Shown here one piece after another: positions 2,265-38,791 of a stretch of DNA of 38,791 bases. Below the pieces are notes generated by a model that did not search any database, was not told the DNA's origin, and saw only the letters and a program-made list of their open reading frames with translations. A program made the position numbers and the translations under genes. Numbering within the stretch: position 1 is the first letter of the stretch; the number at the start of each line of letters is the position of its first letter. The stretch covers positions 1-38,791 of the forward strand of contig JAFPAQ010000009.1 of NCBI GenBank assembly GCA_017424235.1. The letters are read 5' to 3'. This stretch comes from Lachnospiraceae bacterium (GTDB lineage Bacteria; Bacillota; Clostridia; Lachnospirales; Lachnospiraceae).

Positions 2265-3110
2265 ATGAAATTTACAAAAATGCATGGTTGTGGAAACGAT
2301 TATCTTTATATAAATGGCTTTGAGGAGAAGCTTTCTTCCGAAGAAAAGCCTGACTGGGTGAGAAAGGTAAGTGACCGACACTTTGGAGTTGGTGGTGACG
2401 GAGCTATCTTTATCAATCCCGGTAAAGAGGCAGAATTTGAGATGGAGATGTACAATGCAGATGGTACTCGTGCACAGATGTGTGGAAATGGTATCAGATG
2501 TGTTGCAAAGTTTGTATACGATAAGGGACTTACAAATAAGACAAGTATAACAGTAGAGAGCTTTGGCAAGGTAAAATATCTTGATCTTACATTAGGTGAA
2601 GATGGCAAAGTGGCTTCTGTAAAGGTTAATATGGGTGCTCCAATACTTAATGCAAAGGAAGTACCTGTTGTATCGGACAATGACAAAGTCATAAATGAGC
2701 CTATAGTAGTAAATGGTGATACTTATAATATGACCTGTGTATCAATGGGTAATCCACATGCTGTAGTATTTCTTGAGGGATATGATGATCTTAAGGATTT
2801 CGAAATAGAGAAAATCGGACCATTTTTTGAGAGTCACGAAAGATTTCCTGAAAGAGTGAATACTGAGTTTGTACGTGTGATTGACAGACAGACAGTGCAG
2901 ATGAGAGTGTGGGAACGCGGTACAGGAGAGACTCTTGCATGTGGTACAGGCTGCTGTGCTATTGCGGTTGCATGTGTGCTTAATGGACTTACAGACAATA
3001 AGATAACAATTCAGGTACTTGGTGGAGAGATAGTATGTGAATGGGATCAGGAGAAAAATCTTGTGTTTATGACAGGTCCTGCTACTACAGTTTTTGAGGG
3101 TGAAATTTAA
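2265..3110 (+). CDS. dapF: Diaminopimelate epimerase
   Basis: Interconverts LL- and meso-diaminopimelate in the lysine and peptidoglycan precursor pathway. The 281-residue product starts MKFTKMHGCGNDY, the family's N-terminal signature. It has the two catalytic cysteines of the PLP-independent racemase mechanism: Cys73 in MCGNGIRC and Cys226 in LACGTGCC. The glutamate- and arginine-containing segment RVWERGTGETLACG is also intact. The ATG at 2265 follows an AAAAGGAC site. It lies 30 bases after the ANTAR gene and 16 bases before the MBOAT gene with no terminator between them, so it is probably co-transcribed with both. Confidence 0.96.
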   Translation: MKFTKMHGCGNDYLYINGFEEKLSSEEKPDWVRKVSDRHFGVGGDGAIFINPGKEAEFEMEMYNADGTRAQMCGNGIRCVAKFVYDKGLTNKTSITVESFGKVKYLDLTLGEDGKVASVKVNMGAPILNAKEVPVVSDNDKVINEPIVVNGDTYNMTCVSMGNPHAVVFLEGYDDLKDFEIEKIGPFFESHERFPERVNTEFVRVIDRQTVQMRVWERGTGETLACGTGCCAIAVACVLNGLTDNKITIQVLGGEIVCEWDQEKNLVFMTGPATTVFEGEI

Positions 3111-3126
3111 TTAAAGAGGTGTAAAA

Positions 3127-4554
3127 ATGCTTTTTCCTAGCGAAGTTTTTTTGTTTGTGTTTTTACCAATAGTAGTGACAGTATATTATGCTTTTCTTAG
3201 AAAAACAACAGTGGCAAAAAATCTTTTCCTGCTGGCAGCAAGCTTATTCTTCTATGCCTGGGGAGAGCCTGTATATGTTTTTTTAATGATAGGCACTATT
3301 ATATTTAACTGGATATTTGGTATTTTGGTTGATAAGTTTAGAAATAATAAAATCATTGTAAAGCTGGTATTTGTTTTGATGATACTGGTAAATCTGGGGA
3401 TACTTGGCTGGTTTAAGTATGCGGGATTTACAGTCCTTCAGATAAACAGATTCCTCCACACAGCTATAAATGTTCCTGTTGTGGCACTGCCTATTGGTAT
3501 TTCGTTCTTTACATTTCAGGCTATGTCCTATGTTATTGATGTATACAGAGAGCGTGGAAAGGTACAGTACAATCTATTTTATGTAGGTCTTTATGTATCT
3601 TTGTTTCCACAGCTGATAGCAGGTCCTATTGTAAGATATGAGACTATAGCTGATCAGATAGAGAACAGAAAAGAAAATTTCAGTGATTTTTCAGCAGGTG
3701 TTACAAGATTTTGTATAGGTCTTGGCAAGAAGGTACTTGTTGCCAACAATATGGCTGTTATAGCTGATAATGCATTTGCACTTATTATAAATGGTGAATT
3801 TCAGGCATCTATGGGTATGGCATGGCTTGGTGCCATAGCATATACATTACAGATATTCTTTGATTTTTCAGGTTATTCTGATATGGCAATAGGTCTTGGA
3901 CAGATGTTTGGATTCAGATTTGAAGAGAACTTTAATTATCCGTATATTTCAAAGTCGGTATCAGAGTTCTGGAGAAGATGGCATATTTCACTGGGCTCAT
4001 GGTTTAGGGATTATGTGTACATTCCACTTGGAGGAAGCAGGGTGTCAAAGCCAAGACTTATATTTAATACATTTGTTGTCTGGCTTCTTACCGGTATATG
4101 GCATGGTGCTAACTGGACATTCATTGCATGGGGACTTATGTATTTTGTCATCATTACTGTTGAGAAGCTTACAGGCCTTGACAAGAAGGATAAATGGTGG
4201 GGACATATCTACACAATGGTACTTGTCATTATTGGATGGGTAATATTCAAGTCAACAGGTCTTGGTACAGCAGTACTTTATATAAAGGCAATGTTTGGTA
4301 TCGGGGCAAAGGGACTTATTGACAAAGCTGTGTTTGCATATATTGCTCAGAACTGGATTTATTTTGTATTAGCCATAGTGGGATGTGCACCACTTATGCC
4401 TTATATTGATAAAAAGATGAATAAAGATAAAGATGGAGCAGCTGCTATGGTATGGAACATTTTTTATGCGATTGCCATTATTATTTGTCTTGTAGTAAGC
4501 GTATCGTTCATAAGTAACAATGCGTATAATCCTTTCATCTATTTCAATTTTTAG
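3127..4554 (+). CDS. MBOAT-family membrane O-acyltransferase (AlgI/DltB-like)
   Basis: Polytopic membrane O-acyltransferase that moves an acyl group, usually acetyl, across the membrane to an extracellular acceptor. The 475 residues are mostly hydrophobic, with many membrane segments from residue 1 onward. Family signatures are PQLIAGPIVRYETI, SEFWRRWHISLGSWFRDYVYIPLGGSR, and LLTGIWHGANWTFIAWG, which holds the invariant histidine at about residue 326. The downstream gene encodes a periplasmic-type SGNH hydrolase-like partner 12 bases away, its ribosome binding site overlapping this stop codon. The pair resembles AlgI with AlgJ/AlgX in polysaccharide acetylation. The acceptor polymer cannot be told from sequence; a capsule, exopolysaccharide or wall polymer is possible. 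Confidence 0.93.
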   Translation: MLFPSEVFLFVFLPIVVTVYYAFLRKTTVAKNLFLLAASLFFYAWGEPVYVFLMIGTIIFNWIFGILVDKFRNNKIIVKLVFVLMILVNLGILGWFKYAGFTVLQINRFLHTAINVPVVALPIGISFFTFQAMSYVIDVYRERGKVQYNLFYVGLYVSLFPQLIAGPIVRYETIADQIENRKENFSDFSAGVTRFCIGLGKKVLVANNMAVIADNAFALIINGEFQASMGMAWLGAIAYTLQIFFDFSGYSDMAIGLGQMFGFRFEENFNYPYISKSVSEFWRRWHISLGSWFRDYVYIPLGGSRVSKPRLIFNTFVVWLLTGIWHGANWTFIAWGLMYFVIITVEKLTGLDKKDKWWGHIYTMVLVIIGWVIFKSTGLGTAVLYIKAMFGIGAKGLIDKAVFAYIAQNWIYFVLAIVGCAPLMPYIDKKMNKDKDGAAAMVWNIFYAIAIIICLVVSVSFISNNAYNPFIYFNF

Positions 4555-21308: not shown

Positions 21309-21337
21309 TTGATAAATTAGCTAATTTACCATATAAT
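21309..21337 (+). promoter_or_regulatory. Toxin-antitoxin promoter with palindromic operator in the spacer
   Basis: TTGATA (21309-21314), 17 bases, then TATAAT (21332-21337). The spacer contains a perfect 16-base palindrome TAAATTAGCTAATTTA (21313-21328), and a further TAGCTAA is at 21343-21349. This is the expected place for autorepression by a Phd-type antitoxin or the complex. Confidence 0.75.
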
Positions 21338-21386
21338 GAGAGTAGCTAAAATATTCAGAGCGTACATTATACCAGGAGGTGATTTT

Positions 21387-21629
21387 TTGAATACTTCAAT
21401 TGCAACTGCAACTGAGATGCAGAATAATTTCGGAAAATATTTGAATCTGGTAATGTCGGGTCAGGAAATCATTATAACAAAGAATGGTCATGAAGTTGGC
21501 AGGTTTGTTCCGAAGGATGCTACAGTGTCTTATCTGACAGATTCACTTACAGGAATATTAAAGGGTAATGATGATATAGGCGAGGTAAAGTCAGAAAGGC
21601 TTAAAGAAAAGTATGGTTCTATTGATTGA
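21387..21629 (+). CDS. Phd/YefM-family antitoxin
   Basis: Antitoxin that should bind the PIN toxin and the operator in its own promoter. The 80-residue product (from TTG at 21387) reads MNTSIATATEMQNNFGKYLNLV and then QEIIITKNGHEVGRFVP, the Phd/YefM N-terminal DNA-binding fold. The acidic and basic C-terminal tail (DDIGEVKSERLKEKYGSID) would wrap the toxin. The TTG start is chosen because AGGAGGTGA at 21374-21382 is at ideal distance. The upstream in-frame ATG at 21336 overlaps the -10 box and has no ribosome binding site. The last 17 bases overlap the toxin gene. Confidence 0.87.
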   Translation: MNTSIATATEMQNNFGKYLNLVMSGQEIIITKNGHEVGRFVPKDATVSYLTDSLTGILKGNDDIGEVKSERLKEKYGSID

Positions 21630-22020
21630 TGCAAATATTATTCTTGATGTGTTGATGAATCGACAGGAATTTGTTAAAGATTCATCTATGATTTGGAAGC
21701 TTTGTGAAACGGAACAGCTAAAAGGCTATATTTCTACACTTTCTTTTGCAAACATAATGTATATTATGCGAAAAGAACTTGATCCGGATAAAATAGAAGA
21801 GGTTTTTCGCAAATTAAATCTGATTTTTGAATTTGCAGATTTTAGTAAGCCTGTTTTAGAAAAAGCAGTGGAAATGAATTGGAAGGACTTTGAGGATGCA
21901 GTACAAAGTGCAACAGCAGAACAGATTCATGCTGATTACATTATTACAAGAAATGTCCGGGATTTTGCCAAGAGCAAGGTAATTGCTTTTACACCAAGTG
22001 AATTATTATCAAGAATTTAG
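21613..22020 (+). CDS. PIN-domain (VapC-like) ribonuclease toxin
   Basis: Putative Mg-dependent RNase toxin paired with the Phd-type antitoxin. The 135-residue product starts MVLLIDANIILDVLMNR, with active-site Asp6. Downstream it has DFEDAVQSATAEQIHADYIITRNVRDFAKS, which supplies the second acidic cluster. At the position where many VapC toxins carry a glutamate after the first strand-helix unit, the sequence is SFANIMYIM, so Asn stands there; this is common in some PIN subgroups and may not mean inactivity. ATG overlaps the antitoxin end by 17 bases, typical of coupled TA pairs. The RNA target is unknown. Confidence 0.87.
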   Translation: MVLLIDANIILDVLMNRQEFVKDSSMIWKLCETEQLKGYISTLSFANIMYIMRKELDPDKIEEVFRKLNLIFEFADFSKPVLEKAVEMNWKDFEDAVQSATAEQIHADYIITRNVRDFAKSKVIAFTPSELLSRI

Positions 22021-36943: not shown

Positions 36944-38026
36944 ATGGGAAAATGTGACTGTAATAATCAAAATAAGGCTTTAGGAGCATCGAGTATAATG
37001 TTTGGAGAACCTGTAAGGATAATGGGAAGTGGTTCTATTGTTGGGCAGATGGAAAACGAGGGACCTTTGTCAGGCTGCTTTGACAAAGTCAGTGAAGATA
37101 AAAATGATATGTTTGGTGCTGATTCATGGGAAAAAGCAGAAAGTGAGCTTCAGAAATCAGCAATTGCCATAACACTTGAAAAAACAGGAATGTCTGCCAA
37201 AGATATTCGCTATTTGTTTGCAGGAGATTTACTGGGACAGAATATTGCAAGCTCCTTTGGAGTAATGGATTATAATATCCCTCTTTTTGGTCTATATGGA
37301 GCATGCTCGACCTGTGGAGAGTCATTAAGTCTTGGTTCAATGGCAATAGCAGGAGGGTTTGCTGATACAGTAATAAGTCTTACCTCAAGTCATTTTGCAA
37401 GCGCACAAAAGGAATTTAGGTTTCCTTTGGAATATGGAGGACAAAGACCTTTGTATGCATCCTGGACAGTAACCGGAAGTGCAGGCTTTTTATTACAGCG
37501 AAACAATGTTTCTAATGAAATGAAAACTGCTAACAGTACATTCAAAAACAAAATATGTATTACCGGAATAACAACAGGAAGAATTGAGGATTTTGGAATA
37601 AAGGATTCCTTCAATATGGGATGTGCAATGGCACCTGCAGCTAAATGGGTAATTGAAGGAAATCTTAAGGATTTCGGACGTACTCCCTGTGATTATGATG
37701 CCATATTTACCGGAGATCTTGGAAATGTTGGAAGAGAAGCCCTTATTAAATTGCTTGAAGATGACGATATTGATATTAGAAGCAGACATTATGATTGCGG
37801 TATGCTGATTTATGATCTTGAAAAACAGGATGTACATGCCGGTGGAAGTGGTTGTGGCTGTTCAGCGGTAGTATTGTCGTCATATATATTAAAGAAAATG
37901 GATGAAGGTGAGTGGAAGAGGATACTGTTTGTTCCAACAGGGGCATTATTAAATAAGACATCCTTTAATGAGGGACAGAATGTTCCCGGAATTGCACATG
38001 GAATCGTAATAGAGACAATAGATTAA
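36944..38026 (+). CDS. spoVAD: Stage V sporulation protein AD homologue
   Basis: Thiolase-fold protein that in spore formers helps dipicolinic acid enter and leave the forespore through the SpoVA channel. The 360 residues align in pattern with SpoVAD: GPLSGCFDKV, AGDLLGQNIASSFGV, GLYGACSTCGESL, SLTSSHFASAQKEFRFPLEYGGQRP, IFTGDLGNVG, DVHAGGSGCGCSAVVLSSY, FVPTGALLNKTSFNEGQNVPGIAHG. A strong GGAAGGTGGG site is upstream of the ATG. The N-terminus is short and Cys-rich (MGKCDCNNQNK). SpoVAC and SpoVAE are not adjacent, unlike the usual spoVA operon. No clear sporulation promoter was found in the short gap after the upstream terminator, so its transcription start is unresolved. Confidence 0.92.
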   Translation: MGKCDCNNQNKALGASSIMFGEPVRIMGSGSIVGQMENEGPLSGCFDKVSEDKNDMFGADSWEKAESELQKSAIAITLEKTGMSAKDIRYLFAGDLLGQNIASSFGVMDYNIPLFGLYGACSTCGESLSLGSMAIAGGFADTVISLTSSHFASAQKEFRFPLEYGGQRPLYASWTVTGSAGFLLQRNNVSNEMKTANSTFKNKICITGITTGRIEDFGIKDSFNMGCAMAPAAKWVIEGNLKDFGRTPCDYDAIFTGDLGNVGREALIKLLEDDDIDIRSRHYDCGMLIYDLEKQDVHAGGSGCGCSAVVLSSYILKKMDEGEWKRILFVPTGALLNKTSFNEGQNVPGIAHGIVIETID

Positions 38027-38263
38027 TGATTATGAACAGCTTATAGTTTAATTAATTTGTTAACTTATAAATGAAATGATATATAGTGAAAAAAATGAAG
38101 AAATAGATTGAGTTTAGCGTTTTAATAAGTATATTTGCACCAGTAATATCCAATTGTCTGATAACAATGTTCCGAGAACAACGTTACCGACAAAAATTAC
38201 AAAATATGATAAAAGCAAATAAAAATATTGTGCAAAATAACGTCAAAAAAAGCAAAAAAATGA
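38027..38263. other. Non-coding AT-rich region after spoVAD
   Basis: About 240 bases with no credible gene on either strand and no clear terminator for spoVAD. It contains an inverted repeat TGTTC-CGA-GAACA at 38168-38180 followed by ACGTTAC. A related copy, GGTTCATAAG then GAACAGCGTTAC, is at 38294-38315, straddling the predicted start of the downstream RNA. Confidence 0.5.
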
Positions 38264-38292
38264 TTGACAAGGGTGTATGAATATGCAATAAT
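38264..38292 (+). promoter_or_regulatory. Strong promoter of the right-end hairpin-array transcript
   Basis: A perfect TTGACA (38264-38269), 17 bases, then AATAAT (38287-38292), with TGC just upstream of the -10 (extended -10). Predicted start near 38299. No protein gene with a family signature follows. Confidence 0.75.
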
Positions 38293-38298
38293 AGGTTC

Positions 38299-38791
38299 AT
38301 AAGGAACAGCGTTACAAAAAATAAAGAACAAGGTTCTTTTAGAGAAGATTTAATAGAACACCGATACTCAGGTTGGGGGACTTGAGAAGGTGTCAGGTCA
38401 TAAGGATTTCGGGGGAAGTTCCAAGTGACAAGATATAATTATTGGGGAATAATTAATAACGTGGTTTCGAAATGTGTAAAAGGAAGTGATGGATAACGGT
38501 TGGGGGACTGTTAGAAATCAAAAAAGTGTAAAAGGTAAGAAATTCAAAAAGTGTAAAAGGAAAATGTGTAAAGGGTAAAAACAAAAGTGTAAAAGGAAAT
38601 GATGGATAACGGTTGGGGGACTGTTAGAAATCAAAAAAGTGTAAAAGGTAAGAAATTCAGAAAGTGTAAAAGGAAAATGTGTAAAGGGTAAAAACAAAAA
38701 AGTGTAAAAGGAAACAGCAGTTGGGGAACTGCTAAAGAAACAAAAGTGTAAAAGGAAAAAAGAGAAAGGGCAAACAAAAGCGGATATCTTA
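38299..38791 (+). ncRNA. Predicted structured non-coding RNA with an array of UGGGGR-loop hairpins (incomplete)
   Basis: The predicted transcript holds an initial hairpin AAAGAAC-AAG-GTTCTTT (38323-38339) and then hairpins with the loop TGGGGG or TGGGGA: 38367-38386 (stem CTCAGGT/ACTTGAG), 38436-38455 (TAATTAT/ATAATTA), 38494-38513 (TAACGGT/ACTGTTA), 38607-38626 (same stem), and 38716-38733 (AGCAGT/ACTGCT). A weaker GGGG-loop hairpin is at 38404-38422. Stems differ but remain paired, which is compensatory change supporting an RNA fold. Linkers carry GTGTAAAAGG or GTGTAAAGGG ten times from 38474 on. Short open frames with a start codon exist in it (38489-38578, 38602-38691), but the decamer occurs in different frames. 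The 3' end and terminator lie beyond the window. Known family: none recognised. Confidence 0.6.
38474..38699 (+). repeat. 113-bp direct tandem repeat, two copies
   Basis: Unit 1 (38474-38586) and unit 2 (38587-38699) are adjacent and differ at only two bases (38486 G versus 38599 A, and 38547 A versus 38660 G). Each unit includes one hairpin with a TGGGGG loop and four GTGTAAA(A)GG elements. A degenerate third partial unit starts at 38702 and keeps the linker and a changed hairpin. The near identity implies a recent duplication. Confidence 0.95.

Follow-up and report, generated by a model that had tools for sequence, protein, structure and literature searches.

A predicted family of GGA-rich structured RNAs in one genus of Lachnospiraceae, probable CsrA sponges under a candidate TetR-Hpt regulator

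The end of a contig from a Lachnospiraceae bacterium carries a member of a family of noncoding RNAs predicted to be structured and to present many sites that end in GGA. We read this RNA as a probable CsrB/RsmZ-like sponge of CsrA, unrelated in sequence to the known ones and switched by a phosphorelay repressor that combines a TetR-type and an Hpt domain (TetR-Hpt), and we give this joint reading a probability of roughly 60%. The evidence is computational and comprises the RNA family with its promoter, operators, terminator-like ends and motifs, its co-occurrence with TetR-Hpt, an operator shared with the TetR-Hpt gene and a motif shared with flagellin leaders.

The mechanism we propose is as follows. 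The RNA would offer numerous GGA-ending sites, some in the loops of hairpins (UGGGGA, UGGGGGA) and others in linkers of the form UGUAAAAGG(G)A. TetR-Hpt, presumably acting as a TetR-family repressor, would bind GTAAC/GAAC palindromes around the RNA promoter until a hybrid sensor kinase phosphorylates its Hpt domain and repression is lifted. The RNA would then be transcribed, accumulate and titrate CsrA, and with CsrA sequestered, flagellin and other CsrA targets would be relieved of translational repression.

Results

A predicted RNA gene with its own promoter at the end of the window

The window, by which we mean the whole stretch of 38,791 nucleotides that was analysed, is contig C67 of a genome of 3.0 Mb in 273 contigs. 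Judged by its genes, the bacterium is motile and spore-forming: flagellin genes were found in its genome (G000), and the gene 5' of the predicted RNA (36944-38026) is, from its sequence, presumably spoVAD. All 38 named relatives of this putative spoVAD gene belong to Lachnospiraceae.

Ahead of the RNA lies a sigma-70-type promoter (Table 1), the best of six promoter-like sites in 792 bases for which shuffles give 3.3. An earlier sequence-only reading had placed the RNA from 38299 to the last base of the window; the start fits the promoter, but the proposed end is that of the contig and not of the RNA. The last 119 bases of the window are also found, letter for letter, at the end of contig C121, where a long hairpin (AGAGAAAGGGCAAACAAAA..TTTTGTTTGCTCTTTCTC) followed by a T-rich stretch can be read directly as an intrinsic terminator. 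From ~38299 to this terminator, the full predicted RNA measures ~520 nt. Prediction from sequence accordingly gives a free-standing noncoding transcript with a promoter and a terminator of its own, as a sponge RNA would have. A second copy in the same genome, on contig C189 (about 2500-4400, locus L005), also has a promoter and a terminator and lies between genes that we take to be spoVAB-like and spoVAC-like.

Table 1. Features of the predicted RNA gene and its surroundings (window coordinates)
Feature	Position	Strand	Remarks
Upstream operator pair	38161..38188	.	AACAATGTT core at 38163, AACAACGTT core at 38177
Sigma-70-type promoter	38264..38292	+	TTGACA-17-AATAAT, TG before -10; 11/12 score; arrangement kept in 17 aligned copies
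Predicted noncoding RNA	38299..38791	+	runs on into contig C121 via 119-nt identical overlap
Operator at about +6	38303..38316	.	GGAACAGCGTTACA; core in first 20 bases of 19/24 copies
GGGG-loop hairpin 1 (GGGGGA)	38367..38386	+	arms CTCAGGTT/GACTTGAG
GGGG-loop hairpin 2	38404..38421	+	GGATTTC-GGGG-GAAGTTC; absent from the sequence-only reading
GGGG-loop hairpin 3	38436..38455	+	arms TAATTATT/AATAATTA
GTGTAAAAGG linkers, n=8	38474..38483 (first); others start at 38526, 38551, 38587, 38639, 38664, 38702, 38746	+	
GGGG-loop hairpin 4	38494..38513	+	arms TAACGGTT/GACTGTTA
GTGTAAAGGG linkers, n=2	38566 and 38679	+	
GGGG-loop hairpin 5	38607..38626	+	arms TAACGGTT/GACTGTTA; copy of hairpin 4 via 113-nt duplication
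GGGG-loop hairpin 6	38716..38733	+	arms AGCAGTT/AACTGCT
Terminator hairpin, 5' arm	38761..38779	+	3' arm on contig C121; read directly

Every hairpin listed in the sequence-only reading is present, and a sixth (hairpin 2) was found. In the window RNA, the score for GGGG-loop hairpins with stems of at least 5 bp is 10 when each of several overlapping GGGG frames is counted, while dinucleotide shuffles average 0.19; the exact linker GTGTAAAAGG occurs eight times against 0.0 in shuffles. A 113-nt tandem duplication with 97% identity (38470-38582 and 38583-38695) is the source of much of this repetition, and hairpins 4 and 5 are therefore copies rather than independent instances.

A family of copies in the genus

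Complete copies number 24, in 20 of the 38 genomes of the genus, with one or two per genome and predicted lengths of 169-524 nt. A script defined the RNA ends of most copies and the others were placed by eye; a 5'-truncated copy (G014:C87, L060) was left out of the counts. A two-linker pattern matched in 9 of 98 related genomes, one of these matches being spurious (G002:C165), and a promoter-operator pattern matched in 14 of the 38 genus genomes. R1, a model of the promoter region that uses sequence only, matched in 21 of the 38 at E values up to 0.01, and 20 of these were accepted after reading. The G002:C165 match was rejected as an unrelated region without such a promoter, the true copy of that genome being elsewhere. 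Model matches G020:C45 and G021:C157 were likewise read and rejected, and G001:C59 and G021:C45 are not RNA copies: they are the promoter of the TetR-Hpt regulator's own gene.

When R1 was run over 299 genomes (298 genera of the family, our own included; stricter filters), nothing outside the genus held up, weak matches in G171 and G298 having been read and rejected. The spoVAD loci of the named relatives gave no RNA match at E up to 1 (39 sources, that is 38 loci and L004). The gene upstream of many of the RNA copies is, from its C-terminal sequence, presumably serA-like.

Rfam gave no relevant match in the window at gathering scores, and no relevant family matched at E up to 1 in 12 loci that hold 11 of the 24 copies. 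Chance-level matches far below the cut-off (L20 leader, MIR535 twice, mir-5697, ctRNA_p42d) were discarded; the scan also recorded a true tRNA in the flank of locus L050. The Csr/Rsm families (CsrB, CsrC, RsmX, RsmY and RsmZ) had no match in the window or the 12 loci, and the same holds for TwoAYGGAY (RF01731; window at gathering score, loci at E up to 1). These scans agree with the sequence-only reading, which could name no RNA family for the array, and our search of the open-access literature found no description of this RNA.

No reading frame is common to the 24 copies, and relatives keep the hairpins. It is very improbable that the transcript encodes small peptides rich in lysine and cysteine, whether as a plain mRNA or as an RNA with a dual function. 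Copy b does have an 86-codon frame that runs through 63-nt repeats and is open at the RNA end, with a motif spacing that is a multiple of 3, but the motif spacing in copy a is not, the longest closed frames (20-56 codons) differ among copies except near-identical orthologues, and we disfavour the peptide-coding reading for want of a frame common to the family. As a prediction, the structured, undescribed, multi-site RNA of the sequence-only reading is thus well supported, with motifs and hairpins kept in relatives, and we regard a free-standing structured noncoding RNA family as almost certain.

Stems that vary and still pair

Throughout the 24 copies there are 79 runs of at least four G. Of these, 42 are looped out by stems of 5 bp or more, which represent 36 distinct arm pairs; chance alone would give about 14 of 79. 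A chance origin is likely for some of the weaker pairs and conceivable for about a third of the stems found, and related copies are not independent. Own partner arms pair in 57% of cases against 18% on average, and 28% at most, for swapped arms, so the stems vary yet still pair beyond chance.

The compensatory change claimed in the sequence-only reading is borne out across hairpins and paralogous copies, but 13 close orthologues show no more than modest covariation. RNAalifold found almost no consensus for these 13 (-1.64 kcal/mol; double change in 1 of 17 pairs). The named hairpin has 87.8% paired cells in the same orthologues against 27.9-58.4% when slid; only 2 of its pairs (4 cells) changed on both sides, a cell count that 12 of 500 column shuffles reach.

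GGA as the common demand of loops and linkers

Two motifs recur in the RNA, the GGGG-loop hairpins and the UGUAAAAGG linkers, and both end in GGA. Over the 24 copies, the base that follows a run of at least four G is A in 71 of 79 cases (dinucleotide shuffles: 46% on average, 64% at most) and the base that follows the G-run of a linker is A in 65 of 73, compared with 272 of 787 for single G. GGA sites are multiple and, over the 24 copies together, above chance: without the last 35 bases of each copy there are 191, against 146.4 ± 8.2 and a maximum of 169 in 200 dinucleotide shuffles. A first shuffle comparison of hairpins, linkers and GGA used 19 copies and gave 156 GGA against 122.9; the later motif, ORF, hairpin and operator counts used all 24. 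Individual copies have 4 to 17 GGA, the window copy 17, and four of the 24 (G001a, G018, G034, G015) fall below their own-shuffle count. Invariant in the 13 orthologues are UUGUGUAAAA, GGGAU, the GGG and the A of the hairpin loop, and two GAA.

Set against 217 GGA in the 24 RNAs are only three GGAGG and no AGGAG. Together with the G-runs that end in A and the GGA excess, this rarity indicates that the common demand is GGA and not the Shine-Dalgarno core. Shine-Dalgarno mimicry, which the sequence-only reading had also entertained, or a ribosome decoy is for this reason hardly credible, purine-rich as the AAAAGGA and AAAGGGGA linkers are; most flagellin genes in the set described below have AAGGAGG or a similar GGAGG before their start.

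GGA in hairpin loops is a signature of CsrA sites. By prediction, GGA is no more exposed than other GG (unpaired 0.575 and 0.60, respectively; 0.45 overall), and the GGGG-tetraloop fold that is predicted puts the A of GGA into a base pair of the stem, in contrast to typical CsrA sites. The SELEX consensus of E. coli CsrA, as given in PMC7652899, is RUACARGGAUGU with an invariant ACA. Compared by eye with the start of this consensus, RUACARGGA, linker GUAAAAGGA agrees at 8 of 9 positions; GGA together with the invariant ACA was not found in it, since it has AAA for ACA.

CsrA and the flagellin leaders

The genome of the window encodes CsrA, the partner that the sequence-only reading had suggested for the RNA: one csrA was detected, over the Pfam cut-off (G000:C257:94-252). 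Its L4, R6, V42 and R44, which we take to be RNA-binding residues of CsrA, are identical to those of E. coli CsrA. A csrA gene is present in 18 of the 20 genomes with the RNA (missing in G016 and G022, each 86% complete) and in 17 of the 18 genus genomes without detected RNA, and its presence thus does not discriminate between them. Because RNA-less genomes have csrA, and their flagellin leaders are in the set, CsrA control does not require the RNA. Four genomes with no accepted RNA (G017, G020, G027, G029) have 4 to 8 csrA matches each, several of them near flagellin genes.

PMC7652899 describes the flagellin leader as a known CsrA target in Bacillus. Our set holds 33 flagellin leaders, obtained with one start-codon pattern. 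Their source genomes, all of the genus, include both RNA-bearing and RNA-less ones, and the genome of the window contributes a single leader; the last 18 leader bases, which include the Shine-Dalgarno site, were left out of the counts. There are 38 GGA-loop hairpins with stems of 5 bp or more, spread over 27 of the 33 leaders, where shuffles give 6.6 ± 2.5 and at most 16; UAAAAGG is found 11 times, in 10 of the 33, where shuffles give 1.7 and at most 5. These numbers are not fully independent, because an ungapped redundancy filter left some near-copies in the set. The leader from the genome of the window contains AUAUAAAAGGGGAGA and GGCAAGGAUAGCC. Given the enrichment of UAAAAGG, the linker motif of the RNA is also a motif of presumed CsrA targets in the same genus.

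A csrA gene in the genome, motifs that end in GGA and flagellin leaders that share these motifs give strong indirect support to the idea of a CsrA sponge, and we consider it quite probable that the RNA acts as one. Alternatively, it might be a scaffold for another RNA-binding protein, or a base-pairing RNA whose G-rich loop seeds recognise C-rich mRNA stretches, in either case with TetR-Hpt as the regulator. Neither the structure of the RNA nor its regulation would then look different, and the loops hold more G than a minimal GGA site calls for: 24 of the 79 runs are five G long. We nonetheless hold this alternative to be unlikely: GGA-ending linkers are as frequent as loops (73 against 79), they have UAAAAGG in common with the flagellin leaders, and a seed-pairing RNA would not need them.

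An operator shared with the TetR-Hpt gene

The operator is a palindrome with core AAC(A/G)N(C/T)GTT and ends that are mostly GTAAC or GAAC, and 20 of the 24 RNA copies have at least one. A core lies at most 300 bases upstream in 18 of the 24 copies, against 1.1 from shuffles; it is 122-153 bases upstream in 16 copies and inside the -35/-10 spacer in two. The RNA 5' end UUACA can also pair with UGUAA of the linkers (A3 columns 15-19 with 89-93; these pairs hardly vary), and the same letters may serve as DNA operator and as RNA anchor.

One match of the promoter pattern lies in front of a protein-coding gene (L083) and is its promoter; the product combines the Pfam domains TetR_N and Hpt and can be followed for 302 residues up to the contig end. 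The genome of the window has its own TetR-Hpt copy (G000:C123:54941-55843, L171), and protein P0001 consists of TetR_N and Hpt; the TetR-Hpt and Hpt-only loci are L083 and L170-L188. TetR-Hpt was found in 14 of the 38 genus genomes, nearly full length in 13 and truncated by the end of the contig in G018. In the same place, 5 of the 38 have a relative with 52-57% identity that consists of Hpt only; the best matches after these are weaker by some 15 orders of magnitude. None of the other genera among the 298 sampled gave TetR-Hpt at E up to 1e-25, and our search of the open-access literature found no description of the fusion.

Of the 20 RNA-positive genomes, 18 have TetR-Hpt or its Hpt-only relative; of the 18 RNA-negative ones, a single genome does (Fisher p 1.9e-7, uncorrected for ancestry). 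Neither was found in RNA-positive G008 (66% complete) and G014 (78% complete), and the RNA-negative genome that has one is G033 (71% complete). Inspection by eye placed the operator in the promoter of the TetR-Hpt gene itself in G000, G001, G021 and G024; in nine other genomes the gene stands closely behind a neighbour that is presumably scpB-like, without an operator, and in G018 the gene start is off the contig.

The upstream core is present in 18 of the 19 copies from genomes for which no loss of the TetR domain is known, and in none of the five copies from Hpt-only genomes, four of which also lack the +6 core. The exception among the former, G034, has TetR-Hpt and no upstream core and keeps two cores downstream; among the latter, G036 keeps the +6 core. 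It is conceivable that another regulator is at work and that the co-occurrence reflects one clade inheriting both genes, given that all positives are in one genus and that the test ignores ancestry. An operator common to the RNA promoters and, in four genomes, to the regulator's own promoter, and its weakening or loss where the TetR domain is lost, make this improbable, and control of the RNA by TetR-Hpt appears highly probable.

In G011 and G008 the RNA copies (L044, L045) have as neighbours hybrid histidine kinases that carry receiver domains, a type of kinase from which Hpt domains receive phosphate. Upstream of several RNA promoters (L047, L049, L055, L051), TGTCGAA-like sequences resemble Spo0A boxes.

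Discussion

The RNA described here resembles the sponge RNAs CsrB/CsrC and RsmX/Y/Z of Gammaproteobacteria (see also PMC7652899 and PMC4894983): its gene stands by itself, numerous GGA sites occur in its loops and linkers, and a regulator that includes a phosphorelay domain apparently governs its promoter. It is unlike them in having no Rfam match, GGGG(G)A loops, UGUAAAAGG linkers and a place in Lachnospiraceae, and in its candidate regulator, which is TetR-Hpt and not a response regulator of the UvrY/GacA type. TwoAYGGAY (RF01731) and Bacillaceae-1 (RF01690) were proposed in 2014 as CsrA-binding RNAs of Clostridia and Bacilli, a prediction needing validation according to the authors of PMC4333381; in contrast, our RNA matches neither family in the sequences scanned.

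The FliW-CsrA-flagellin control of Bacillus subtilis has counterparts in csrA, in flagellin leaders with GGA hairpins and, in G011, in a fliW directly before csrA. FliW is already a protein antagonist of CsrA, which is a point against an RNA sponge; unlike in B. subtilis, an RNA antagonist would here be added. CsrA itself is distributed well outside Gammaproteobacteria. Firmicutes and Epsilonproteobacteria are described as using FliW and having no RNA antagonist of CsrA in PMC8668096, which also mentions a Csr-like RNA in Leptospira biflexa as a candidate outside Gammaproteobacteria. Many csrA-bearing bacteria are described as without homologues of the antagonizing sRNAs in PMC4894983.

If true, the sponge reading would add a CsrA sponge with a candidate switch in gut Lachnospiraceae to the earlier candidates outside Gammaproteobacteria, and would connect a sensor relay with how flagellated gut bacteria move. 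As the end point of a phosphorelay, a fusion of a TetR DNA-binding domain with Hpt would be unusual. More tentatively, and at somewhat less than even odds, the parts may make up a whole Gac/Rsm-like circuit of independent origin in Lachnospiraceae, leading from kinases through TetR-Hpt and sponge RNAs to CsrA, beside FliW. Hpt-only genomes would in that circuit be a natural variant in which phosphotransfer was kept and DNA binding dropped.

Both RNA copies of the window's genome adjoin putative spoVA genes, the one in the window coming after spoVAD (window position 38026). With copies near spoVA genes and near kinases, one may guess at a tuning to sporulation or stress. Elsewhere in the window (21336-22020), two adjacent small genes resemble, from their sequences, what we take to be a toxin-antitoxin pair of a PHD-like antitoxin and a PIN-domain protein.
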